Below, one piece after another: positions 33,040 to 64,000 of a DNA stretch of 64,000 nt. The translations under genes and the position numbers were made by a program. Where the stretch lies: positions 62,001-126,000 of the forward strand of contig CALULH010000002.1 in assembly GCA_944321435.1 (NCBI GenBank). The letters run 5' to 3'. Below the pieces are notes generated by a model. It was not told where the DNA came from. It was given only the letters and a program-made list of their open reading frames with translations, and searched no databases. Within the stretch, counting starts at the first letter, position 1; the number at the start of each line of letters is the position of its first letter. The DNA comes from an uncultured Coriobacteriaceae bacterium. Its GTDB lineage: Bacteria > Actinomycetota > Coriobacteriia > Coriobacteriales > Coriobacteriaceae.

Positions 33040-33169
33040 GAGAAACGGGGACGGGATGAGGCGATCCCGTCCCCGTGCGTCCATAGGGGAAGAGGCGATC
33101 CCGTCCCCCATTATCCAAACGTACCCGTCCCCAATGGCAGCGTCCAAATGAACCCGTCCCCAATGGCAG
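33040..33169. repeat. Cluster of GTCCCC-type short repeats
   Basis: An inverted repeat CGGGGACGGGAT/ATCCCGTCCCCG (33049-33078 region), another GCGATCCCGTCCCC at about 33091-33104, and two copies of ACCCGTCCCCAATGGCAG (33123-33140 and 33151-33168). The same ACCCGTCCCCAATGGCAG unit recurs in the palindrome at 42666-42733. Confidence 0.75.
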
Positions 33170-42498: not shown

Positions 42499-42802
42499 GC
42501 GCGCTTCCTTTCGTGCGAGAAGAGCCCGTGAGGACCGTTGCGAACCGCTCCATTGTCAACGCCGCGGCATGCCGCGCGCAACCGGTTGCGCGAGGATGTA
42601 ACAATTGCCCGACGCAAAGCGAGCACGTCGCCCGCCCTTGGGGGCTTGCCAGGGGCCTGCCATTGCCTGCCATTGGGGACGGGTACCGTTGGCAGACGTC
42701 TGTCTGCCAACGGTACCCGTCCCCAATGGCAGGCGGCACCCATCCCCAATGGCAGACCGTGGCGCGGGCGGCGGGGCGGCCGGGCAAAACGGGCGGCCCG
42801 CT
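42499..42802. other. Gap between hisB and hisH
   Basis: 304 bp without a credible gene. It contains the 68-bp perfect palindrome at 42666-42733, an extra CCTGCCATT copy before it and a degenerate CACCCATCCCCAATGGCAG after it. If the his genes are one transcript, this hairpin lies inside it. Confidence 0.7.
42666..42733. repeat. Perfect 32-bp inverted repeat
   Basis: Arms 42666-42697 and 42702-42733 are perfectly complementary with loop GTCT. The outer part is the ACCCGTCCCCAATGGCAG unit seen at 33123 and 33151; the inner part contains GTACCGTTGGCAGAC. There is no T-run, so it is not a classic terminator. Confidence 0.9.
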
Positions 42803-47317: not shown

Positions 47318-47512
47318 TTTGGTGTGGCCCTCTCCTATTTGGTGTGCTTCCCTTCCTAATTGGTGTGCTCCCCGTTCTGTTTGGTGTGCTTCCCCGTGGG
47401 CGATAAGAGCAGAATCCTGGGCTTTTATCCCGAACAACCACACCAAACAGAAAGTAGGCCACACCCAATGGAAATCGGGCCACACCAAACAGAAAGCAGG
47501 CCACACGCAGGA
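47318..47512. repeat. Family A repeat array, locus A1
   Basis: Left arm: TTTGGTGTG-type motifs with GGTGTG at 47321, 47341, 47362, 47383. Right arm, inverted: CACACC at 47439, 47460, 47481 and CACACG at 47502. Period 20-21 bp; the two innermost motifs are 56 bp apart around a core with AATCCTGGGCTTTT (47413-47426). Lies between the his operator and the sortase stop. No CRISPR-like spacers or cas genes. Confidence 0.9.
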
Positions 47513-51549: not shown

Positions 51550-52176
51550 TACCTCGACCGCCTCGTTCTCCCGATCCGCACGCAGCCACTTCTCAAACGT
51601 CGCGCGACACACGCCGAGCTTCTCGCCTGCCCGAGCCGCCGTAATCTCCCGCCGCTCAAACTGCGCTTTGACTTCCGCGTAATGCGCCGGACGCGCAATG
51701 CGCGGGCGGCCAAACCGGGCGCCGCGACTCTTGGCGGCGGCGATGCCCTCGGCCTGGCGCTGGCGGATGTTATCGCGCTCCACCTGGGCAACATAGCTCA
51801 GCAGCTGCAGCACGATATCCGCTATCAGCCGGCCGGTCAGGCTTTCGTTGCCCGATCCCTGGCCGTTGCCGCGCGTATCAAGCAGCGGCATGTCCAACAC
51901 CACAATGTCCACTCGGCGCTGCTGGGTAAGCGTGCGCCATTGCTCCAAGATCTCGGCGTAGTTGCGTCCCAGACGGTCGATGCTTTTGATGACCAGCACG
52001 TCTCCGGGACGGAGGCGGCGCATCAGCCGATGGTAGGCAGGTCGTCTGAAGCTGGCGCCCGTGCACTGATCGGCGTAAATGCGGCGCAGCGGAATGGAGC
52101 TGGCGGCAAACACGTCCAGCTGACGGTTGAGGTTTTGATCGCAGGTTGATACGCGGGCGTAGCCGTAGCATGCCAT
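51427..52176 (-). pseudogene. Resolvase/invertase-type serine recombinase, 3' end replaced by the IS
   Basis: Starts MACYGYARVSTCDQNLNRQL with the catalytic Ser in ARVST, then IKSIDRLGRNYAEI and a C-terminal HTH region (ITAARAGEKLGVCRATFEKW). After residue 210 or so the frame runs into the IS right end (VSRFLRTFRQPL is encoded by the terminal repeat) and ends within the IS, so the native tail is lost. Catalytic and DNA-binding regions seem complete, so some activity may remain. ATG 52176 with GAGGTG upstream. Paralogue at 54033. Confidence 0.8.
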
Positions 52177-52441: not shown

Positions 52442-52798
52442 GGCCCGTTTGGCATGGCCTGCGCGCTGTTTGGCGCCTTGCGCCCCTGCCTGACGTGCCT
52501 TGCTGAGTATGGCTTGCACTCTATCTGGTGTGGCCTGCATCCCGTCTGGTGTTCCGTGCGGCCCGTTTGGTGTGGTCTACTTTAGGCAACGCAGGTGGAA
52601 TCCTGGGCTTTTGTTCTTATCGCCCACACCAAACAGAAAATGAAGCACACCAAACGGAGCGTTACGCACACCCAATAGCGAGCCGACCACACCAAACGGA
52701 AAACCGACCACACCAGGCGGTAGGCCCACCCCACCAGACGACGAACCGGCCACACCAAACAATAGGCCGGCTACAGCAAGCGACAGACCGGCCACGCT
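52442..52798. repeat. Family A repeat array, locus A2
   Basis: Right arm: nine units with start points exactly 21 bp apart: 52625, 52646, 52667, 52688, 52709, 52730, 52751, 52772, 52793 (CACACC in six; degenerate at 52730, 52772 and 52793). Left arm, inverted: GGTGTG/GGTGTT at 52527, 52548, 52569 and weaker GGCATG/GGCGCC at 52451 and 52472. The inner pair is 56 bp apart and the core AATCCTGGGCTTTT starts 30 bp after the inner left motif, both identical to A1. The wider gap 52177-52824 holds no gene. Confidence 0.92.
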
Positions 52799-52824: not shown

Positions 52825-53583
52825 TCACATGAGACGCATGGCTCCCGCCCACGTCATAACGCTCTCGCTTTGGAGAAAGGTAAGGAAGGGATCGAGATCC
52901 CCTTCGCCGTGAAACGCGTCGAGCGCACCGTAATATGACATGCGATCCCCTTCACGAATGGCAATAGGCGGAGCCGTCATTGCCATGAGCACCATGTTCA
53001 TAAGCAAACGCGCAACGCGGCCATTACCGTCGGCAAAGGGATGTATTTCGACAAGTTTGGCGTGGAGGTACCCCGCAACGGTTAGGGCGTTTTTCTCGTC
53101 ATCAAGATGTGGGTTGACCTCGTCAAGGAGCTCGGCAACCGCAGCGGGGACTTCCTCCGCGTCGCATCCGATGGCGTTCACGCCCACCACGTAGTCGCCG
53201 CGCTTATAGGATCCGGGGCGCTCGCCGTTCTCCCAACGCGCCGTATCGTACGTGCCAAACGTAAGGAGCTCGTGAGCACGCAACACCAGCCGCTCGGTAA
53301 ACCTGAGGCCAGGCACCGCAAGGGGCCGTGCCCACTCCCAAGATGCCTTAAGGTTTTGAATCTCAAAGAGCGTGCGGACATCGCCGGTATACGCAATTAC
53401 GCGGCCGTTCTCAAACACCTCGTGCGTTTCGTGGTAGGTGATCTGGTCGTTTTCGATCTTGCCCGAATGATATGCGTAGCTCAGGGCAAACGAGCCAATA
53501 CGGCGGTCTCGTTCTTCTTGGGAAAGGGACAACCAGGTCGACACCAGCTTCTGGTACTGCCGATCTATGATCTCATGTGCCAT
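52825..53583 (-). CDS. Fic-domain protein (probable AMP-transferase)
   Basis: 252 residues. The Fic motif HPFADGNGRVAR is at 181-192, complete with catalytic His and the phosphate-binding GNGR. An N-terminal SGKIEN (40-45) fits the inhibitory [S/T]xxxE[G/N] motif, so this is a class II, self-inhibited Fic. Such enzymes transfer AMP from ATP to protein hydroxyls. It lies 12 bp after a 67-residue gene, likely one operon. The array A2 begins just past its stop. Confidence 0.92.
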   Translation of the reverse strand: MAHEIIDRQYQKLVSTWLSLSQEERDRRIGSFALSYAYHSGKIENDQITYHETHEVFENGRVIAYTGDVRTLFEIQNLKASWEWARPLAVPGLRFTERLVLRAHELLTFGTYDTARWENGERPGSYKRGDYVVGVNAIGCDAEEVPAAVAELLDEVNPHLDDEKNALTVAGYLHAKLVEIHPFADGNGRVARLLMNMVLMAMTAPPIAIREGDRMSYYGALDAFHGEGDLDPFLTFLQSESVMTWAGAMRLM

Positions 53584-53595
53584 GACGCCCTCACT

Positions 53596-53799
53596 CTAAG
53601 AAAGGTAATCGACTAGGCGGCGTTCTTTAGGGTTCTTGCCAGCCGCTTTGGCCGGAAAGCAGTCATGATGACCCGTATCTGCCAGCAACTTGAAATCACC
53701 GGACTTTAGGGCCTCGGATAGGCTGCCGTGCGCAGCAATGTAAGCCAACAGGCGCTGGTCATCTACCATGTCGCCTTTTGGATCAAGCCAAAACCGCAT
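53596..53799 (-). CDS. Small protein upstream of Fic, possible partner
   Basis: 67 residues, MRFWLDPKGDMVDDQRLLAY onward, ending RRLVDYLS. Acidic/basic mixed, helical, no known family. AGGA stands 5 nt before ATG 53799. The 12-bp gap to fic suggests coupling. It could be a Fic regulator or target, but class II Fic proteins do not need a separate antitoxin, so this is only a suggestion from position. Confidence 0.65.
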   Translation of the reverse strand: MRFWLDPKGDMVDDQRLLAYIAAHGSLSEALKSGDFKLLADTGHHDCFPAKAAGKNPKERRLVDYLS

Positions 53800-54032
53800 A
53801 GGCTTCCTACCTAGAACGTCGTGCCGGTTTCCCAACCCGCTGTGGTTTATTATGTATAGCCATGGTAGCACGGGCAGCATGCGCTTTCTGAAGCGGATCG
53901 CGCTCCGCGCCGTGATGCTTCTTCCCGTGCCTTTGCCCACGCGTCGGCGCAGAAGCTCGGAAGGCGAAAGCCGCACTCATACGACCGGCGCGGGCAGAAA
54001 GCGCACTCATACGAGGGAGCCAGCAAGTGGCG

Positions 54033-54648
54033 TTACGCCACGCCCCGGAGCGCGCAATCGCGGTCATGGCGGAGCCACTTTTCAAACGTTGCGCGGCAAA
54101 CGCCGAGCTTCTCGCCCGCCTGGGCAGCGGTGATCTTGTGCTGGCAGAACTCCCCTTTGACCTCTTCGTAATGCTCCGGCCGCTCAATGCGGGGCCTGCC
54201 GAAGCGCGCACCACGCTCCCGCGCGGCGGCTATGCCCTCGGCTTGGCGTTGGCGGATGTTCTCGCGCTCCACTTGGGCAACGTAGCTCAGCAATTGCAGC
54301 ACAACGTCCGCGATGAAGGTGCCGGTGAGATCCCCGCGTGCGCTGCGCGTGTCCAGCAACGGCATGTCCAGCACCACGATGGCAACCCCGCGTTCCTGCG
54401 TGAGCGCGCGCCATTGGGCAAGAATCTCGGCGTAATTGCGCCCCAGCCGGTCAATGCTTTTGATCACCAGCACGTCGCCCTTGCGCAGGCGGCGCAGCAG
54501 GCGTTGGTGCGCGGGACGCTTAAAATCCGCCCCGGTATAGTGGTATATATATGTTGCGCTCCGGAACGGGAAAAGCCGCAAGGGCATCCATCTGGCGGTT
54601 GACGTTCTGCTCGCGCGTGGAAACACGCACGTAGCCATAGATTGCCAT
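54033..54648 (-). pseudogene. Resolvase with frameshift in an (AT)n tract
   Basis: Begins MAIYGYVRVSTREQNVNRQM at 54648, then at about 54540-54550 an ATATATATA tract breaks the frame; the rest continues in another frame as YTGADFKRPAHQRLLRRLRK through the HTH region (AGEKLGVCRATFEKWLRHDR). It is a close relative of the gene at 51427-52176. Slippage in the AT tract could restore the frame, so phase variation is possible; simple decay is equally likely. Confidence 0.8.
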
Positions 54649-55086
54649 GCGCATCCTCTCTACGGCGTCATGTACTCATTTATATTTTAGCAGAGATGGA
54701 ACCATATCACGTACATGCGTTCGGTGTTACTTTGGGGCTATCAGACCTGGTTTGACTCAAAACAGGCAACGACGCGGTCAAACAGGGCGTCGGCAGAGCA
54801 GTCGGGTCAGGTCGCCCTGCCTCACTATCTGAAGCTCGCCCGTCTTTGCATCATCCCTGTTGTTTCAGCGTCCCTTCTCACGTAGAGACGAACCGCAAAG
54901 AAACGTTTCCGCAGGTCATCTAATTGCTACAAACCAGGCATACTTAGCTAAGGCGTCAAAAACAACAGGGACGATGAAACGGGCGGCCTCAACAGCCGTA
55001 GACGCGCCAACATAACGAGAGCATTGCGCCGGAATCCCCTCAAAGGCGCATCAGAACAGGATTGGTCGGCCGCCCGCCCCTCCTCG
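54649..55086. other. AT-richer intergenic stretch with inverted repeats
   Basis: 438 bp without a trusted gene. An imperfect inverted repeat TCATC..CCCTGTTGTTT is at about 54850-54867 and 54958-54975, about 125 bp in total. GC content is lower than in the flanks. It may be a remnant of a mobile sequence. Confidence 0.5.
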
Positions 55087-56832
55087 TTAGCGCTTGCGCA
55101 CTGCGGCAGCGAGCTTTTCGCCCAGCTCGCGCACGCGCGGATCAAGGCGCGCGCGGCCCGGATGCACAAAGAACCGCGCCGTGCACTCAAGGATATCGCC
55201 GGTAATGACCAGGTTGTTCTCGCGCAGCGTAGTGCCCGTGGCCGTAATGTCCACAATGCGGTCGGTCATGCCCACAATGGGTCCCAGCTCAATGTTGCCG
55301 TGCAGCTGCACAATGTCGGCCTGAATGCCGCGGCTCTCGTAGTACGCCTGCGCGATCTTGGGGTACTTGGTGGCCACGCGCAGGGTACCGCGCCGCGCAT
55401 ACGCGCGCTCGGCCTCGCCCGCGCGATCGGCCGGCTCGGCCTCTATAAAGCGACAGCCGCCAAACTGCAGGTCCTCCAGCTGAAGCAATCCCAGGTCAGC
55501 CTCGATGAGCGAGTCGCGCCCGCAGATGCCGCAGTCGGCACCGCCGCAGCTCACAAATGCCGGCGCATCGGACGCGCGCACGATGACAAACGCCACGTCC
55601 TCCCCGCCGGGCACGATGAGGTGCCGTCCGGGGTTGCGCAACTTGCCCACGTCGAGCCCGGCAGCTTCCAAGAGGTCCACCGCATCGGAGAAAAGCGATC
55701 CCTTGGGAACGGCAATGCGCAACGGGCGTGAAGAGCACGAGGCGCCGCCGGGGGTCCCGGAAGACGCGCGCGTGCCATCAGAGTGGCTCTTCTTGCCCGC
55801 CGCAGCAGAAGCCAAGGCCGACGAGGCCGCCGTAGCCGCAACCGCGGCCCCGGCGTCATCCGGCAGCGCCGTCTCGATGCGCTCGAGCGAGAAGGCAAAG
55901 CCGGCTGCCGGCAGGGGCTCACCACCCGCGTCGAAAGACGAATCGTAGCGGCCGCCGGAGCACACGCACTCGGTCTGATCGGCCGCGTAGACCTTGAAGA
56001 GCAGGCCCGTGTAGTAATCGAACGAGTTCATGATGGAGAAGTCAAAGCGCAGGCGGTCGGCCTGGCCGCGCTCGGCAAAAGCGGCGGTCAGGGCGCGCAG
56101 GTCCTCGGTGGCCGAGGCCAAGATGCCCGCCGCCGCGATGAGCGTGTCCACCTGGTCGAGCGCATCCGCGCCGCCATGCACGCGCGGGATACCGCGCAGC
56201 GCGGCGGCTATCTCGGGCGTGACGGCGCCCGCCTGCTCGGCGGCGCTGACGGCCGTGTCCAGATCCACCAGGTTGTTCTCGTGCACGTAGTCGATAACCG
56301 CCGCGGCGAGCGCGGGGTCGGGCACGCGGTCGAGCACGGCGCGCAAGGGACGCACGCTGCCGCAGACCACCAGCCAGCCGGGCAGCGCCAGGGCCTCGGC
56401 CGCGTCGGCAGCAAGACCCACGACCTCGGCGTCGGCCTGCGCCCCGCCCGCGCCGATCAGCTCGACGCCCAGCTGGGTGAACTGGCGCTCTCGGCCCGCC
56501 AAGCGCGGCTGCTCGCGCACCACGGTGCCCTGATAGCGCACGCGAAGCGGAAAGCTCAGCGCGCCACGGCGCGCCGACACCATGCGAATGATGGGCAAGG
56601 TGAGCTCGGAGCGGACAACCATAAGGCGGCCGTCGTCGTCAAAGAGCTGGAAGGGGGTATCGGCAATGCGGCCGCCCGCCTCCAGCACGCCGCGGTTCTC
56701 AAGCACCGGCGTTTCAATGGGCAGGTAGCTATGGTCTTGGAAGCAATCTTGCACGGTGCGGGCAATGCGCTCGCGCACCAGCGCCTCCTCGGGCAGGATA
56801 TCGCGGAACCCCCACGGTGTAGCTGCGATCAT
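55087..56832 (-). CDS. hisZG: HisZ-HisG fusion, ATP phosphoribosyltransferase
   Basis: 581 residues. The N-terminal part (1 to about 325) is HisZ, a HisRS-like regulatory subunit (ETPVLENRG, GVELIGAGGA, FDFSIMNSFDYYTGLLFKVY). An Ala/Ser-rich linker (about 328-370) leads to the short-form catalytic HisG (about 372-581; LRIAVPKGSLFSDAVDLLEA, GICGRDSLIE, IVDITATGTTLRENNL). Short HisG normally needs a separate HisZ; here both are one chain. It performs step 1 of histidine synthesis. ATG 56832 with AGAGG upstream. It is 8 kb from the other his genes but shares their 18-bp palindrome. Confidence 0.93.
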   Translation of the reverse strand: MIAATPWGFRDILPEEALVRERIARTVQDCFQDHSYLPIETPVLENRGVLEAGGRIADTPFQLFDDDGRLMVVRSELTLPIIRMVSARRGALSFPLRVRYQGTVVREQPRLAGRERQFTQLGVELIGAGGAQADAEVVGLAADAAEALALPGWLVVCGSVRPLRAVLDRVPDPALAAAVIDYVHENNLVDLDTAVSAAEQAGAVTPEIAAALRGIPRVHGGADALDQVDTLIAAAGILASATEDLRALTAAFAERGQADRLRFDFSIMNSFDYYTGLLFKVYAADQTECVCSGGRYDSSFDAGGEPLPAAGFAFSLERIETALPDDAGAAVAATAASSALASAAAGKKSHSDGTRASSGTPGGASCSSRPLRIAVPKGSLFSDAVDLLEAAGLDVGKLRNPGRHLIVPGGEDVAFVIVRASDAPAFVSCGGADCGICGRDSLIEADLGLLQLEDLQFGGCRFIEAEPADRAGEAERAYARRGTLRVATKYPKIAQAYYESRGIQADIVQLHGNIELGPIVGMTDRIVDITATGTTLRENNLVITGDILECTARFFVHPGRARLDPRVRELGEKLAAAVRKR

Positions 56833-56927
56833 GGTAGGCCTCTTTCTTATATATATGCGCGTGCGGTGCAACGCGGGCGCCCGGGGCACCGCATCGTTCC
56901 GCCACCGTTAGCGATCGGTCTCACGGT

Positions 56928-56945
56928 ACTTTACCATACTAAAGT
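56928..56945. promoter_or_regulatory. 18-bp palindrome upstream of hisZG
   Basis: ACTTTACCATACTAAAGT, matching the hisD-upstream ACTTTACCATGGTAAAGT at 16 of 18 positions, both with ACTTTA/TAAAGT ends. Candidate shared his operator. Confidence 0.7.
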
Positions 56946-57124
56946 GACCGAGGCCCTTCCTTTGCGCTTGCTAACGGATTCGTTACATCGCGCTGACGCG
57001 TCGAAGCATTTAGGCAACCCTCATCAACAGAAAGGCTATGTTGGCGTGGCCGTTCCGCCGGCTGGGCCGCTGCTGGCGGGGCCGCCTCGCCGACCAGGGC
57101 TGCCTCGTCAACTGGAGCCGTCCC

Positions 57125-57425
57125 GCATGCAAAGCTGTTCACCAAGAAACTCCGCATGCATTCCTTATCGTCTAGAAGCCAAAATCGGTCTCCAGCCGAT
57201 AAGGAATGCATGCGGAGTTCCCAGCTGATAAGAAATGCATGCAGAACAATCCGGCTGATAGAAACTGCATGCAAAAAAGACCGCAGCTGCCAAGGGGCAC
57301 ATGCGGGAACGCCCAAGCAACAAGCAACGCAGTCAGAAGCTGCCCCATCCCAACCGGAAAACGCGTGCAGGGTCCTCGCCTGGTAGAAAATACATGCGGA
57401 ACCCTGGCTGCTAAAGAGCGCATGC
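57125..57425. repeat. Family B repeat array, locus B1
   Basis: GCATGC at 57125 and 57154 (left arm), then 57208, 57237, 57267 and degenerate copies near 57299, 57328, 57363, 57392 and 57420 (right arm). Step is 28-30 bp for most. Right units resemble GCTGATAAGAAATGCATGCA. The inner pair is 54 bp apart, with GCCAAAATCGG starting 24 bp after the inner left motif. Located between hisZG and the RarA-C-like gene. Confidence 0.88.
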
Positions 57426-57995
57426 AAAAACCCGCGCGGCGCCGCCCGCACGCACGACGACCGCAAGCGCAAGGTCCGCCGACCCCCGCGTCCATCACTC
57501 GCCCCTGTTCAACCGCGCATTTTTACCAATAGATAAGGTAAGTTTGCGCACGTTGCCCATTTTTGGCGTATAGTATGCATCGGGCATCACAAAACCGCGC
57601 AATGCACACAGATCCCTCGCGACTGCAGCACCAGCCGGCATAAGCAGCCCACTTTTGGCGCATGCCGCGCCTTATGTGGTCACTTATGCAGGCGGGTGCT
57701 TTTTCGTTCGCGCAAGCGTGCGGACGTGAGGCGCCAGGAGCCACCGGTTCGCAACCTGCCTGCTCCGCAGCACATCTTGCGGTCGCAGGCGCCGTCGCCG
57801 GCCGCGCGCAACGAGCCCGCGCATGCCTGCCGGGCATGCGCGCAGCCGCGCACGCACCCGGCGCCGCACGCGACGCCCGGCACTCGCAATCGCCGGGCCC
57901 GCGCTTCTCGCCCGCTCGCATTGCCGGCCGCCGCCCACCCGCCTCATAAAGCGCGCGCCGCACCATGCGACGCGCCTGAGCAGATAGGAGTACCT
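57426..57995. other. Intergenic region before the RarA-C-like gene
   Basis: 570 bp. CCCAYTTTTGGCG followed by YATG occurs twice (57558 and 57645 regions). A TATAGT near 57571 is a possible -10 with TTGCGC 19 bp upstream (weak). Overlapping frames on both strands here are GC-rich shadows. Confidence 0.4.
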
Positions 57996-58685
57996 ATGGC
58001 AGAAGAGCACGTCAACGCCGCGCCCGAGCCCGCCGGCCCAAACGCGCAGCACGCGGAGGGCACGGCGCCGCAGCCAGCGCCCTTCATCGAGGACCCGTGG
58101 GCCCGCTCCAAGACCCGCAACGGCCTGCCCGGCGACGAGGTCATCTCGGCTCTGCAGAAGAGCATCCGGCGCGGCAACGAGCGCGCCGCCTGTGAGTTTG
58201 CCTACGAGATGTACATCACCTCGCCGGCTTGGGAGGAGAAGCTCTGGCGCCGGCTGCTGGCTATTTCGGTCGAAGACATCGGCATGGGCAATCCGCAGGC
58301 CGCCGTGCTGGTCAACGCGCTCAACCAGATGCGCCAGACCTTCCAGTACAACGAATCCGACCGCGCCATGTTCTTCTTCCACGCCATCCGCTACCTGTGC
58401 GAGTCCGAGAAGGACCGCTCGACGGACTTCCTCAAGAACATCGTGATCAAGAACTTCGCCATGGGCTACGTGCCCGAGATCCCGGACTATGCGCTGGACA
58501 AGCACACCGTGCGCGGTCAGCAGATGGGCCGCGATTCCGAGCATTTCTTCAACGTTGCGTGCAAGGTCACCCCGCAAGCCGAGGTGGACAACACCTACCG
58601 CGAGGAGTACGGCGAGCTCCTGGAGCACTATAGCCCGGACAAGGTCATTCCCTCGGCATTCAAGTTCAGCGCCATCCAGGTGTAG
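57996..58685 (+). CDS. Stand-alone RarA/MgsA C-terminal-domain-like protein
   Basis: 229 residues. After an Ala/Pro-rich N-terminus the segment DEVISALQKSIRRGNERAAC, then LWRRLLAISVEDIGMGNPQA, resembles the C-terminal tetramerisation domain of RarA/MgsA-type clamp-loader relatives (ASEDVGLADP region). No Walker motifs, so no AAA+ module. TAGGAG precedes ATG 57996. It is followed by a PTS permease 98 bp away; link unclear. Role unknown. Confidence 0.75.
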   Translation: MAEEHVNAAPEPAGPNAQHAEGTAPQPAPFIEDPWARSKTRNGLPGDEVISALQKSIRRGNERAACEFAYEMYITSPAWEEKLWRRLLAISVEDIGMGNPQAAVLVNALNQMRQTFQYNESDRAMFFFHAIRYLCESEKDRSTDFLKNIVIKNFAMGYVPEIPDYALDKHTVRGQQMGRDSEHFFNVACKVTPQAEVDNTYREEYGELLEHYSPDKVIPSAFKFSAIQV

Positions 58686-58688
58686 AAC

Positions 58689-58723
58689 GGCAGTGCGGAA
58701 ACGCCCGTCGTTCCCGCACTGCC
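58689..58723. terminator. Hairpin between RarA-C-like gene and PTS gene
   Basis: GGCAGTGCGG/CCGCACTGCC stem at 58689-58698 and 58714-58723 without a T-run. Possible partial terminator or mRNA-stability element. Confidence 0.5.
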
Positions 58724-58783
58724 GGCAGCACCTCGGGGCAACCGCCCCGTTCCACCCCTTCGACAAGAAAAGGCGGCTTCTTC

Positions 58784-60100
58784 ATGAGCAACACCTCTCT
58801 TCTCGACCGCTTGAACGACAAGATCCAGCCCGTTGCCGAGAAGATCGGCGGCGAGCGCCATCTGCAGGCCATTTCCGACGGCATGTTCCTCAGCCTGCCG
58901 TTCATGGTCATCGGCGCGTTCTTCCTTATTGCGGCCAACCCGCCCATCAACCTTGACCAGTACGACCCCGCAACGGCCAACGTGTTCATGCAGGCGCTGG
59001 CCGCGTGGAAGAACTGGGCCGTGGCCAACTACGACGCCATCACCACGCCGTACAACCTGACCTTTGGCCTGGTTGGCCTGATCTCGGCCTTCGGCATTGC
59101 CTACTCGCTGGCCGGCGAGTACCGCCTGGCCCAGGCCAACAGCGGCATCATCTCGCTGGTGACCTTCCTCATGGTGGCCACCCCCGTGGCCGAGGGCACC
59201 ATCCAGACGCAGTACCTGGGCGCGGACGGCCTCTTTGTGGCTATCATCATCGGCCTGCTGTCCGTCGAGGTCACGCACTTCATGGACAAGCACAACATGC
59301 GCCTCAACCTGCCGCCCAGCATTCCGCCGGCCGTTGCCACCTTCATGAGCTCGCTGATGCCCCTGCTGGCCAACATCGTGCTGTTCTACGGCATTAACCT
59401 GGGCTTCATCGCGGGACTGGGCACGAGCTTCCCCGCCGCCGTCATGCAGGCGCTGACGCCCGGCCTGGACGTTGCCAACAGCCTGCCGGGCTTCCTGCTG
59501 GTGGTTACGCTCGGGCAGATCCTGTGGCTCTTCGGCGTCAACGGATCGTCCATCATCTTCCCCATCGTGTTTACGCTCGGCGTGGCGCAGACCGGCCTCA
59601 ACGCCGATCAGTTTGCCGCCGGCGAGGCGCTGACGCACGTCATGAACCTGCAGATGTACCGCATCTCGGTCATGGGCGGAGCGGGCAACACGCTCGGCCT
59701 CATCATCCTCATGATCCTCTCGCGCGTTCCCGAGAACCGCACGCTGGGCAAGCTGGCGCTCATCCCCGGCATCTGCGGCATCAACGAGCCGGTCATCTTC
59801 GGCCTGCCCATCGTGTTCAACCCCATCATCGCCATCCCGTTTGTGCTGACGCCCATCGTGACGCTCACGCTCACCTACCTGGCCCAGTCCCTCGGGCTTA
59901 TCGGCATGGGCTACATTGTGGACCCGTCGTTCACGCCGTTCTTTGCGCAGGCGTTCCTGTCCAGCATGGACTGGCGCAACGTGGTGTTCACACTGCTGCT
60001 GATTCCGCTGACCGTGGTCATCTACTACCCCTTCTTCAAGGTGTACGAGAGAAGCCAGATCAAGCGCGACCAGGAGGCTGCCACCGCCAAGACGGCGTAA
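58784..60100 (+). CDS. PTS EIIC permease, lactose/cellobiose family
   Basis: 438 residues with about ten membrane helices. It starts MSNTSLLDRLNDKIQPVAEK and carries GICGINEPVIFGLPIVFNP, the conserved substrate-pore motif of CelB/LicC-type EIIC. It would import beta-glucosides or related sugars with phosphorylation, but no EIIA or EIIB gene is next to it, so those must be encoded elsewhere. AAGGCGG-type site before ATG 58784. Confidence 0.92.
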   Translation: MSNTSLLDRLNDKIQPVAEKIGGERHLQAISDGMFLSLPFMVIGAFFLIAANPPINLDQYDPATANVFMQALAAWKNWAVANYDAITTPYNLTFGLVGLISAFGIAYSLAGEYRLAQANSGIISLVTFLMVATPVAEGTIQTQYLGADGLFVAIIIGLLSVEVTHFMDKHNMRLNLPPSIPPAVATFMSSLMPLLANIVLFYGINLGFIAGLGTSFPAAVMQALTPGLDVANSLPGFLLVVTLGQILWLFGVNGSSIIFPIVFTLGVAQTGLNADQFAAGEALTHVMNLQMYRISVMGGAGNTLGLIILMILSRVPENRTLGKLALIPGICGINEPVIFGLPIVFNPIIAIPFVLTPIVTLTLTYLAQSLGLIGMGYIVDPSFTPFFAQAFLSSMDWRNVVFTLLLIPLTVVIYYPFFKVYERSQIKRDQEAATAKTA

Positions 60101-60475
60101 AAGGCCTCACCGGGCCTTGCTGACAGGCCCCTCTTCCCGGCGCTGCAGGCGGAGCGCGTGTCTCAACCGCGCTTCCGTACGCATAGTCGCCTTCTTCCCG
60201 GCGCTGCGGGCGGAGCGCATTATGCACCGCCCCGCCCGCAGCGCGCTTTACCCGGCGGTTTTACGGCAGGGCCTCGGTACGCCGAGGCGGCCCCGCGCCA
60301 CAGTAAGCGCGGCCTAAATGAGCCCAAACGGGTCCAAACGGGCACACGCCCCGCGAAACCCCCGGGTAAAGCGCGCACGGCCCGACGGCGCCCCCTGGCG
60401 CCTGGCTGCCCGGCACATCCCGCATGGCGCGCCCCATCGGCGCGCCGCTTCCGTGAGCCTGTGAAAGGAACCGCC
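60101..60475. repeat. Intergenic region with a 61-bp-spaced direct repeat
   Basis: TTCCCGGCGCTGC then RGGCGGAGCGC occurs at about 60134 and 60195. No reading frame looks coding. The region separates the PTS gene and guanine deaminase and probably holds the promoter of the latter. Confidence 0.6.
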
Positions 60476-61756
60476 ATGATCCTCAGGGGAACCGTCATCT
60501 GGACGCCCGCGCTCGGACGCGCCGAGGTGCGCGAGCGCGCCTACCTGGTGGCCGACGGCCCGACCGTCCGCGGCGTATTCGACCAGCTGCCCGCAGACTG
60601 CGCCGACAAGCCCGTAACCGACTACGGCGACGCGCTGATCATCCCCGCGTTCGTGGATGCGCACGTGCACGCGCCGCAATTCCTCAACGCCGGCATCGGC
60701 ATGGACGACGAACTGCTCCCCTGGCTCAACCGCCGCACCTTTCCGCTGGAGGCGCGCTTTGCCGACCCCGCTTTTGCCGACCGCGCCTACCGGGCCTTTC
60801 TGAACGCGCTGTGGGAGGCGGGCACCCTGCGGTTCTGCGCCTTCGCCACCGTGCACGCCCGGGCCACGTGGCACCTGATGCAGCTGGCCGAGTCCGCCGG
60901 GTTCTCGGGCCTGGTGGGCAAGGTCAACATGGACCGCAACGCGCCGGAGGCGCTGACCGAGGACACCGCCGCGTCGCTGGCTCAAACCGAGGAGCTGGCC
61001 TTGCGCGCTCGCTCCGAGCTGCGCAACATCGGCTTTATCGTCACACCGCGCTTTGTGCCGTCCACCACGCCCGCGCTCATGGAGGGCCTAGGCGCTTTGG
61101 TCGAGAAGCACCAGCTGCCCGTTCAGAGCCATGTTGATGAGAACCGCGGCGAGGTGGCCCTGGTACGCGAGCTGCATCCGGAGGCCCGCAGTTACGCGCA
61201 CGTATACGACGACTTCGGCCTTATGCCAACGGGGCGCACTGTTTTGGCGCATGCCATCTGGCTCACAGATCCCGAGGTAGAGCTTTTGCGCGAGAAGCGC
61301 GTGCTGGTAGCGCACTCGCCGCAGAGCAACGCCAACCTCACGAGCGGCATCATGCCCGCACGGCGCTGGCTGAGCGCCGGGCTGAGCTGCGCGGTGGCCA
61401 GCGACCTTGCAGCCGGCTCCGATGCGTGCCTGGCCCGGCACGCCGCCTGCGCGGTGCAGGTCTCCAAGCTCAACCAGGTGTCCCATGCGGAAGAGACGGC
61501 GCTGCATGTGCCCGAGGCGCTGTACCTGGTCACCAAGGGCCCCGGCTGCTTTGCGGGCTTTGCCCAGCCGTCCGGCAGCTTTGAGCCGGGGTTCCGAGCC
61601 GACGCGCTGGTCGTTGGCGGCGAGCGCGCTGCCGCGCTGGACGAGCTTCTCCCCCGCACCCCGCTTGAGCGCCTGGAGCGCTTCCTGTACGCCGGCGACT
61701 CCCGCGACATTTGCGCTCGCTACGCCGCCGGCGCCCTCATGGAGCGCCCGTTCTAG
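60476..61756 (+). CDS. guaD: Guanine deaminase
   Basis: 426 residues; amidohydrolase with the metal-binding DAHVHAPQFLNAG, the catalytic region QSHVDENRGE, VLAHAIWL and the Asp of AVASDLAAGSD. PQFLNAGIGMDDELLPWLNR is typical of guanine deaminases. It converts guanine to xanthine and ammonia. GAAAGGAA precedes ATG 60476. Monocistronic. Confidence 0.92.
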   Translation: MILRGTVIWTPALGRAEVRERAYLVADGPTVRGVFDQLPADCADKPVTDYGDALIIPAFVDAHVHAPQFLNAGIGMDDELLPWLNRRTFPLEARFADPAFADRAYRAFLNALWEAGTLRFCAFATVHARATWHLMQLAESAGFSGLVGKVNMDRNAPEALTEDTAASLAQTEELALRARSELRNIGFIVTPRFVPSTTPALMEGLGALVEKHQLPVQSHVDENRGEVALVRELHPEARSYAHVYDDFGLMPTGRTVLAHAIWLTDPEVELLREKRVLVAHSPQSNANLTSGIMPARRWLSAGLSCAVASDLAAGSDACLARHAACAVQVSKLNQVSHAEETALHVPEALYLVTKGPGCFAGFAQPSGSFEPGFRADALVVGGERAAALDELLPRTPLERLERFLYAGDSRDICARYAAGALMERPF

Positions 61757-61895
61757 GCAGCCCCTCCGGCAGCCGCAATCCGGCGACGCAATCTGCCTGC
61801 TGTGACCGGCTGGCGACGCGCAACTGACGGCTACGGGCTACCGGCCATACGCCACCAGCCATGCGTTGCTGGCCGCGCGTTGCTGGCCGCTCGTT

Positions 61896-62013
61896 GCATG
61901 CAGTTCTTATCGCCTGGAAATTCTGCATGCAGCTTCGTTTGCCTAGAGGCCAAAAATGGCCCGCAGGCGAACGAAAGTGCATGCGGAGTTTCTTCCCGAA
62001 CGAAAATGCACGC
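61896..62013. repeat. Family B repeat array, locus B2
   Basis: GCATGC at 61896 and 61925 (left), 61979 and GCACGC at 62008 (right): spacings 29-54-29. The core folds as CTTCGTTTGCCT/AGGCGAACGAAAG with an inner GGCCAAAAATGGCC; GCC begins 24 bp after the inner left motif. It lies directly past the stop of the DUF559-like gene. Confidence 0.9.
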
Positions 62014-62054
62014 AGAATCGAACAAAGCCGACCTTCTGGTAAGAGCGCGCGCCG

Positions 62055-63110
62055 TTAAGAACGGGCACGGGGGATCCCGAATGCCTGCAGCGTGCGAGCA
62101 ACGTACCCCGGTTCCCTGACCTTGGAAAACTGAAAGCGCATCACCGGCATGCCCAGCGCCGTAATGCGCGACTCGCGCTGCCTTTCGTCGAGAAGCACAC
62201 CCATCACCGTGCGTCCGGCGCGCATCCCCTCGTTGACGTACTTCTCGGCTCCGTCCAGCTCGCCCACAATGCGGCGCCCATCCGGCAAGGACCACAGCAA
62301 GTCGGCACGGAAGGTGCGACGTGGATCCGTCACATCGGGTAGCTTCACCTGCAGATCGGTTGGCGGCAAGTAGCCCTCCTCTATGATGGTTCCACGCAAA
62401 ATCGATTCCCCGCCGCTTTCAGCGCGCCCGTCAGCCAGTGCGGCGACTTGCAGGGCACCCCGGATGCCGTGCCGGCGCTTGCCGTGGTCCGCCATAAAAG
62501 CGATAAGCTCATCCCGGTCGATTCCGTATATTCTCAGGGCCGAATCCGCCATCGCCAGCGCATCCGGCAACTGCGCCGCTATCAGGCAGTCCAGTAGCGT
62601 TTGCTTAAGCGAGGTTACCGGCACGCCCTGGACAATGCCCGTCTGGTCCTCCTGCGATCGCGTGCAATGTCGACATACCTGCTTGCTGCTGCGCGAACGC
62701 GCGGCCCGTTTTGTTTGTATATGCACTTGCTCGAGCAAGCGGTAGGAGACGCTCAGGCCGTAGACGAGCGCTGCGGAATAATGGCAGAACGTCCAGCGCT
62801 CGTGGAGCTCGTGCGCGCCGCGGATGACGCACAGCGCCTGTGCGCCGGGCCGCAGATCATCCCAGAACGCACGGCGCGCATACAGCCCTGGGAACGGGTT
62901 GAGCGCCGTTTTGGCGCGCACGCGCCGCCGCATGATTTGGTAATGCCTGCCTCCGGGGCGCATTGCGACACAGTGCCCCTTGCGCTCCGCCCGATCGAAG
63001 ATCGCCTCGAGCTCCCGCGTCCCCGCGGTCATACGCGCGTTTTTCTCGCCCTGCTCCCTTGCTGGCGTTGCGTCCGCGCCAGATTGGACATTATTGAAAC
63101 CATCTGCCAT
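62055..63110 (-). CDS. AbiEi-like/DUF559-type protein
   Basis: 351 residues. The N-terminal half resembles the wing-helix plus AbiEi-like region seen in many actinobacterial proteins (FCHYSAALVYGLSVSYRLLE, then PVTSLKQTLLDCLI). The C-terminal part has GGESILRGTIIEEGYLPPTD, FRADLLWSLPDGRRIVGELDG and ITALGMPVMRF, matching the vsr-like/DUF559 PD-(D/E)XK fold (E...D...ExDG). AGGGGC lies before ATG 63110. It is flanked on both sides by family B arrays (B2 and B3). Function unknown; defence or toxin-antitoxin roles are often proposed for such proteins. Confidence 0.78.
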   Translation of the reverse strand: MADGFNNVQSGADATPAREQGEKNARMTAGTRELEAIFDRAERKGHCVAMRPGGRHYQIMRRRVRAKTALNPFPGLYARRAFWDDLRPGAQALCVIRGAHELHERWTFCHYSAALVYGLSVSYRLLEQVHIQTKRAARSRSSKQVCRHCTRSQEDQTGIVQGVPVTSLKQTLLDCLIAAQLPDALAMADSALRIYGIDRDELIAFMADHGKRRHGIRGALQVAALADGRAESGGESILRGTIIEEGYLPPTDLQVKLPDVTDPRRTFRADLLWSLPDGRRIVGELDGAEKYVNEGMRAGRTVMGVLLDERQRESRITALGMPVMRFQFSKVREPGYVARTLQAFGIPRARS

Positions 63111-63407
63111 AGAGCGCCCCTTCCCGACACCGGGAACCGTGATTCAGCGGCCCCTCTCAAACGCAGTGCCGCCTACGGCGCAACCCTAGCAGACGATTCT
63201 TGCCGGAATCTTCCCCCAGTCCAACTGCGCACCATGCGCAATCTAGCTGCGCATCCCTGCCCGGCCTTTCTTCTTGCAGGTGCGAAGCCGCGCCGTCAGG
63301 GATCGGACGGGCAGATTGGCGCGCCAGCTGCGCGAATTCTCCGCCCTTTCTCCATACGGAGCTGGCGATCGTTCACCTTGCCCACATAACTGTAGCCGCT
63401 GGGCGTT

Positions 63408-63525
63408 GCATGCATTTTCTTTCGCCAGAAAGTTCTGCGTGCATTTCCGTTCGCGAGGACGCCGAAAACGGTCTCTAGGCGAATCAAAATGCATGCAACG
63501 CCGCCAGGCGATAGGAAGTGCATGC
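63408..63525. repeat. Family B repeat array, locus B3
   Basis: GCATGC at 63408, GCGTGC at 63437, GCATGC at 63491 and 63520: spacings 29-54-29, identical to B2. Core GCCGAAAACGG starts 24 bp after the inner left motif. The stretch 63111-63407 before it shows nothing else that I recognise. Confidence 0.9.
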
Positions 63526-63572
63526 AAAGGCGCTCCTCGCCCCCTCCCCGTGCGCGCAACGACCCCAAAGAA

Positions 63573-63611
63573 AAGAGCCTCCCGCGAAGAAAAACTTCGC
63601 GGGAGGCTCTT
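63573..63611 (-). terminator. Terminator of the gene at the window edge
   Basis: Perfect 17-bp stem (63573-63589, 63595-63611) with an A-rich loop, followed on the minus strand by TTCTTT. It closes the transcript of the helix-hairpin-helix protein. Confidence 0.9.
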
Positions 63612-63641
63612 TGAGGTCAACCGTAACAGCGGGAGGCGGGT

Positions 63642-64000
63642 TTAATCCTCCTGCTCCTCGGGGTGCTGGTCGTCAGAGTCGACCAGCTGATTGAGCAGCT
63701 CGTCCAGCGAGGCCATGTCCTCGTTGATGACGCCGGGCTTGCTCTCGGTGGTCTCGGCCGGAGCGCCGATCATCTCCTCGTCCTCGTAGTGACGCGGAGC
63801 GCTGGTGCCCAGCAGGATGTCGTCCGGACCATCCGGGCTGAAGACCATCTGCAACAGCTGGGACAGGTCCTCCTCGTCGGCCACATCCTCGTTGTTGTCG
63901 AGGATGTAGAGCAGGCCGCGAGCCTCGAGGCCGTCGCGGAGCTCCTCGATGGCCTTGGCGCCGATACCGTCGATGCGGAGCAGGTCCTCCTCGGACTTGC
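63642..64000 (-). CDS. C-terminus of a helix-hairpin-helix protein (partial)
   Basis: 119 residues visible, running off the window edge. SEEDLLRIDGIGAKAIEELR is a helix-hairpin-helix resembling the RNA polymerase alpha C-terminal domain or NusA-type HhH units; an acidic tail follows (NEDVADEEDLSQLLQMVF ... DSDDQHPEEQED). The terminator right after it argues against rpoA (rplQ would follow) and against nusA in its usual operon. I cannot name it without the N-terminus. Confidence 0.75.
   Translation of the reverse strand, partial: KSEEDLLRIDGIGAKAIEELRDGLEARGLLYILDNNEDVADEEDLSQLLQMVFSPDGPDDILLGTSAPRHYEDEEMIGAPAETTESKPGVINEDMASLDELLNQLVDSDDQHPEEQED

Follow-up and report, generated by a model that had tools for sequence, protein, structure and literature searches.

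The stretch of DNA analyzed here (the window) comprises 64,000 nucleotides (nt) of contig CALULH010000002.1, positions 62,001-126,000, in assembly GCA_944321435.1 of an uncultured Coriobacteriaceae bacterium (genome G000). In its last 7 kb lie three palindromic arrays of one repeat family, B1, B2 and B3, and B2 and B3 bracket a reverse-strand gene whose product is predicted to join an AbiEi-type DNA-binding part to a nuclease part of the Vsr/homing type. Sequence comparison across relatives indicates that the pairing of such a gene with matching repeats on both sides is general, that each gene lineage has a repeat of its own and that species differ by the presence of the gene between its arrays. 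We consider it likely that gene and arrays represent an apparently undescribed kind of element that is mobile or self-propagating. The features concerned are as follows.

62055..63110, minus strand: nuclease gene, ATG start, 351 amino acids; predicted AbiEi-type DNA-binding part plus Vsr/homing-type nuclease part
62424..63026, minus strand: AbiEi-like region, residues 29-229, the faster-evolving part
62064..62423, minus strand: Vsr/I-Bth0305I-like nuclease region (predicted), residues 230-349, with E235, D270, E284, D286, K290, R312 and R325
57121..57246, strand not applicable: B1 array, boxes at 57124, 57153, 57207 and 57236; dispersed copy of the B family
61892..62017, strand not applicable: B2 array, palindrome of four units with boxes at 61895, 61924, 61978 and 62007; downstream of the nuclease gene
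63404..63529, strand not applicable: B3 array, palindrome of four units with boxes at 63407, 63436, 63490 and 63519; upstream of the nuclease gene

The B arrays and the gene between them

Each of the three arrays carries four TGCATGCA boxes (at most one mismatch) at offsets 0, 29, 83 and 112, giving a spacing of 29-54-29 in 3 of 3. An earlier note on this DNA had reported this spacing for B2 and B3 and had seen that they bracket the gene, and our box scan agrees with it to within a few bases. The four-box register occurs three times in the window and in none of 300 simulated windows matched to it in average dinucleotide composition. Because two direct units are followed by a centre of about 22 nt and then by two inverted units, the entire 126-bp B array is palindromic. 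By an array we mean here the four units of a single palindrome and not a set of CRISPR-like spacers, and B1 runs on with more inverted units to about 57430. Folded as single-stranded DNA, the arrays have z-scores of -8.4 (B1), -5.5 (B2) and -4.9 (B3).

The family is dispersed through the genome. A blastn search with B2 gave 20 matches to its own genome, and a box scan of 13 fetched stretches gave 15 rows, one of which was dropped as the shadow of a neighbor; with partial two-unit copies excluded, there are at least 14 copies, 12 with four boxes in register and two lacking one outer box. By a crude screen, 13 of these 14 lie outside open reading frames (ORFs). In the 12 copies of the 14 that are gapless, 84.4% of cells in the arms are paired, against 32-45% in slid controls, and changes on both sides affect 46 cells against 28.1 ± 3.9 in shuffled data, a score reached in 0 of 500 shuffles. 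This covariation argues that the symmetry itself is maintained as the sequence drifts. The closest relative examined, G002, also has an array at the place equivalent to B1, and it has no palindrome at the positions of two other B sites of G000 (C5:93484 and C3:90260); we do not claim a clean insertion at either site because the surrounding intergenic DNA in G002 is changed as well.

The nuclease gene ends 37 nt from B2, and its start codon is 293 nt from B3. Its product is predicted to combine the two parts named above, and AbiEi models of PADLOC match it (best 5.3e-9), the top model also matching 16 of 36 members of a homologue set. The assignment of the nuclease part rests on its predicted fold and conserved residues and goes without a Pfam match: the 351-amino-acid protein matched no Pfam family at E <= 1, and the best result of a sequence-profile search of the PDB (E 0.066) was to flagellins, which we took as chance. 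The 36 homologues included no row for DUF559 either, so that the earlier label of a DUF559-like gene does not correspond to a Pfam match. A family missing from the VIA-align list was not counted as absent. Among 84 homologues E235, S236, R239, G246, G287, R312 and R325 are invariant, while D270, E284, D286 and K290 are kept at 98-99%, and the nuclease part holds seven of the eight fully invariant residues. The AbiEi-like half is the more diverged of the two (mean identity 0.32 versus 0.43), and this is so in 3293 of 3486 pairs.

The two genes adjacent to the nuclease gene encode an amidohydrolase and RpoC, and no AbiEii-type toxin partner is among these two neighbors of the window gene, the one locus scanned for it; a toxin-antitoxin operon with a neighbor was rejected on this account. 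The protein encoded by rpoC (L009 8646-13139), which adjoins B3, has a C-terminal match to the alpha-subunit C-terminal domain (PF03118, E 1.2e-8). We also rejected phage or plasmid cargo as an explanation, there being no match in the phage collection and two in the plasmid collection (37% and 31% identity), one of them on a 0.9-Mb record.

Matching repeats around related genes

Homologues of the nuclease occur in 61 genomes of a set of 98 (the window's own included), at one to six per genome. Of the 90 loci examined there, one was dropped for short flanks; the 89 that remained include the window's own locus (L022) and one gene that appears in two rows (L023 and L071). With a threshold set at the 99th percentile of mismatched flanks, the left and right flanks match each other in 55 of the 89. 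Sham 1-kb segments of the window pass the same threshold in 4 of 55 cases, and these four look like repeated coding DNA of transporters in two cases and like DNA of the resolvase region in the other two; the window has a confirmed resolvase at 54033-54635 (PF00239).

A second set of loci was drawn from a named contig collection, in which a query with the single protein sequence confirmed no relative; an alignment used as query later gave 392. We took the best 80 of these 392, and one with short flanks was dropped to leave 79. Their labels are mostly those of Coriobacteriia (Collinsella, Olsenella, Enorma, Gordonibacter, Paraeggerthella, Raoultibacter, Atopobium and others, with one Bifidobacterium), and many relatives within this group of mostly gut bacteria have such a bracketed gene. 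The two sets share some genomes and are not independent. In the named set the flank repeats match in 62 of 79 loci versus 7 of 474 mismatched pairs, and in flank windows of 700 nt they do so in 55 of 73 loci, whereas sham segments taken from the same contigs gave 3 of 146. Of the 61 named loci that score above 25, 55 have a left repeat that is more palindromic than every one of 10 shuffled versions. The form of the repeat varies by lineage, from long single hairpins to stacked pairs like those of B or tandem units. Judged from these alignments, the association of the nuclease gene with matching repeats on both sides is a general one.

It is also specific. The B consensus matches only 3 of the 98 genomes, namely its own, G002 and, over one 42-bp stretch, G096, and G002 is the only other genome of the 98 with homologues above 50% identity. 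Other array families are confined as well: among the 98 genomes, that of locus L027 is found at eight places in G005 and one in G001, and that of L024 in G001 and G003 alone, the flanked genes of these two being 88% identical to each other. Across the 1,225 pairs of the 50 loci with clear flank repeats, the repeats match in 6 of 6 pairs with a protein identity of at least 70% and in 0 of 1,219 pairs below it, although shared descent of the whole locus also adds to the match at 70% and above. At the site of the window gene, G002 has a gene whose product is 62% identical, and its flanking arrays have boxes of the GCTAGC type, not GCATGC. As far as sequence comparison can tell, then, the array repeat is private to each gene lineage. 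Another homologue in G002 (G002:C7), 57% identical, has by it a palindromic repeat unlike B (L072 2677-2824), for which we found no matching partner on the other side.

The window's own genome has two homologues, which go with two array families. The second, at C2:172346-173359, is flanked by 21-nt CCACACCAAAC units, and dispersed copies of this type (family A) are present in the window, aligning with the flanks of that gene at scores of 34-67 in the better orientation.

47318..47506, strand not applicable: family A array of palindromic 21-nt CCACACCAAAC units; dispersed copy of the second homologue's flank type
52524..52795, strand not applicable: second family A array, same 21-nt unit type, dispersed copy

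Gene presence and absence at the xanthine dehydrogenase site

The array family of locus L100 occurs in 20 of the 98 genomes, all of one genus, 10 of them with its gene and 10 in which the homologue search showed none of that subfamily. Next to one xanthine dehydrogenase gene, 10 species read array-gene-array, and in seven of these filled genomes the ATPase gene on the other side matches as well (it does not in G031, G041 and G045). In six other species (G035, G036, G037, G038, G056 and G052) both flanks, 93-97% identical, meet at a single array and the gene is absent; in the first five the missing DNA is that of L100 1502-3355, with the junction inside array units. Four genomes were excluded from the counts of filled and empty sites, three because one flank was matched (G032, G033 and G039) and one because neither was (G054). 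Hence these species differ, on alignment of their flanks, by a nuclease gene between arrays.

The earlier note had asked whether relatives keep one array and lack the gene, and the six species at this site do exactly that. At the window's own locus no gene-less allele was seen, because G002 has its gene at the same place. The suggestion of a mobile or recombining cassette is accordingly borne out in relatives (10 filled and six one-array species) and not in the window itself. The note had further held that arrays at many loci without any such gene, together with a gene that is neither gained nor lost between them, would speak against its idea. Arrays do stand at many loci without the gene, but gain or loss of the gene is seen in relatives.

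Filled and empty states can be separated by very short distances: G055, which is filled, groups with the empty G056 and G035 in a well-supported clade whose branches measure 0.0017-0.0053. Parsimony on the flank tree requires seven changes in gene presence, of which well-supported branches compel just two; shuffled labels average 7.0. The tree is poorly resolved overall and the filled or empty label is no more clustered than when shuffled, and as the count equals the shuffled mean we claim only that gene presence is patchy, not its direction. None of the 10 filled genes has an internal stop, and the median dN/dS (nonsynonymous to synonymous rate ratio) is 0.18 (45 pairs). A dispersed array of the same family, at the L203 site, has from none or one to five units among 17 species, these numbers being read from half-unit ends only because the unit-counting pattern matched nothing.

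What the gene and its arrays may be

What could tie a gene to its repeats in this way? The explanation we favor, and hold to be fairly probable, is that the nuclease gene and the arrays bracketing it are one element. The protein would bind its own array units via the predicted AbiEi-type domain, a step suggested by the binding of AbiEi-family proteins to 23-bp inverted repeats, and would cut or nick DNA at these units, which its predicted fold and conserved residues suggest. Recombination at the arrays would then shift the gene, duplicate it or remove it, and would also scatter the arrays, with spread perhaps occurring by break repair or gene conversion between arrays. The idea in the earlier note that the protein may act on the arrays gains indirect support from the pairing of lineages with arrays and from the predicted DNA-binding and nuclease parts.

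Four known systems share something with the proposed element. When a retroelement lying between two like repeats is lost by recombination, a solo long terminal repeat (LTR) is left. By analogy, loss of the nuclease gene would leave a single array; the likeness lies in two like repeats that bracket an element and in the one that remains, while here the repeats are palindromic and the gene is predicted to encode a nuclease where a retroelement has a reverse transcriptase. Vsr-like homing endonucleases such as I-Bth0305I belong to the family named EDxHD; the gene of such an enzyme interrupts its own cleavage site, which makes it immune, and is copied into gene-less alleles that the enzyme cuts. 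To judge from the predicted model, our protein shares with them a Vsr-like nuclease fold and a conserved acidic site, but it has an AbiEi-like targeting part, there are many dispersed arrays per genome, and its gene is free-standing between array units, with the arrays on both sides intact and still palindromic. According to PMC7319586, AbiEi and Rv2827c bind 23-bp inverted repeats, four of them in the case of Rv2827c. With these type IV antitoxins (Streptococcus agalactiae AbiEi, 6y8q; Rv2827c, 1zel) the protein appears to share the AbiEi-type fold, on profile matches and the model; it differs in its additional predicted nuclease domain and in having no adjacent toxin gene, and its repeats flank both sides of the gene and are dispersed.

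The closest parallel is that of REPINs and their RAYT transposases. REPs and REPINs are described as dispersed extragenic palindromes in inverted pairs with compensatory changes, the RAYT gene being flanked by its own repeat type and several enzyme-repeat pairs occurring per genome (PMC3116915, PMC3686654); REPs end in a conserved tetranucleotide, GT(A/G)G (PMC3686654). All three arrangements recur here: an enzyme gene that lies between palindromic repeats of its own dispersed type, the inverted pairs with compensatory changes (in the 12 gapless B copies of the 14) and the several pairs in one genome. However, the enzyme is a predicted AbiEi-Vsr fusion and not an HUH/Y1 transposase (TnpA-REP), the array units have a greater length and come in stacked pairs or in tandem, and two array-bearing genomes (G001 and G003) have no Y1_Tnp match. 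Being REPIN-like in its repeats, dispersal and bracketing but not in its enzyme, the system is like REPIN/RAYT but not of it, and we think it likely that it is a comparable element built on an unrelated predicted nuclease that recognizes, cuts and spreads its arrays.

Other explanations have to be weighed against this. That the arrays are ordinary REPs or REPINs of a Y1 (RAYT) transposase, with the nuclease gene merely between two of them, would agree with the one Y1_Tnp match in the genome and with an architecture and covariation like those given for REPINs in PMC3116915. We rejected it as very improbable because the 6 kb around the Y1 gene hold one lone box and one weak palindrome but no four-box array or strong palindrome, and because G001 and G003 have L024 arrays without a Y1_Tnp match; moreover, bracketing tracks the nuclease family. 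Least probable of all is that the arrays serve to terminate transcription or to stabilize RNA and bracket the gene by chance. They are stable intergenic hairpins, but this reading is already contradicted by the mismatched-flank and sham-segment controls, in particular the same repeat on both sides of one gene family against 3 of 146 sham segments. The four-box register common to the copies also stands against it, as does an Rfam scan of 54000-64000 that gave no match, on which ground a known RNA family was rejected too.

Two further alternatives give the protein a role but not that of spreading the arrays. It might be a DNA-binding regulator or chromosome organizer, with the arrays as operators and the nuclease fold serving another substrate, and repeats would then flank the gene because it regulates itself. 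AbiEi-family antitoxins do bind 23-bp inverted repeats, in sets of two or four, within the promoter of their own gene (PMC7319586), B3 is upstream of the gene, nearly all arrays in the genome (13 of 14, crude screen) are outside ORFs, and the dN/dS of 0.18 is equally compatible with a host function. We nevertheless consider this unlikely, since the matching repeats are on both sides and not just upstream in 62 of 79 named loci, the fully invariant residues are concentrated in the nuclease part (seven of eight), and gene presence is patchy among close species. Patchiness is, on the other hand, typical of defense genes, and the PADLOC matches (5.3e-9 for the window protein, 16 of 36 for the top model) would likewise agree with a defense or conflict nuclease whose arrays, not spread by the protein, are decoys or landing and recombination sites for swapping defense genes. 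This we regard as improbable given that the adjacent genes are an amidohydrolase gene and rpoC, with no AbiEii-type partner, and that the dispersed arrays belong to one gene lineage each and, in most of the cases found here, have no gene of this kind with them.

A more far-reaching possibility, which we hold to be nearly as likely as not, is that of a new class of selfish element in which a Vsr nuclease of the homing type, targeted by an AbiEi domain, propagates its gene and its own palindromic arrays without a transposase, and in which array recombination inserts or removes the gene. The DNA-binding half and the array box would change together, so that each lineage would found a repeat family of its own, and one genome could hold up to several such families. 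To our knowledge, the spread of short palindromic repeats in bacterial genomes has been explained so far mainly by one enzyme class, the RAYT transposases. Here each lineage of a predicted nuclease family unrelated to RAYT goes with palindromic repeats of its own, as seen in Collinsella, Olsenella, Enorma, Gordonibacter and further relatives, and we found no account of such a gene-array pairing among the papers that the literature searches listed, bioRxiv preprints and most subscription papers being outside their scope. The proposed element would explain many otherwise unexplained intergenic palindromes in these genomes, would offer dozens of natural protein-DNA pairs for studying how a DNA-binding domain coevolves with its target, and is a possible source of new sequence-specific nucleases.

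Two minor observations concern other repeated DNA. A third palindrome family, CATTGGGGACGGGTACCGTTGGCAGAC, is present at 42665-42734 and at L011 9690-9773, with a tandem copy at 33114-33169; it is somewhat like a hairpin by the Y1 transposase gene of G002 (L347 3093-3166), and its palindromes are possibly the true RAYT repeats, which would make them instructive to compare with the arrays. Finally, 446 nt at 51581-52026 align with a score of 204 to DNA about 2 kb further on (53301-54500) that overlaps the resolvase gene (PF00239), which suggests that recombinase DNA has been duplicated in the stretch that separates the A arrays from B1.
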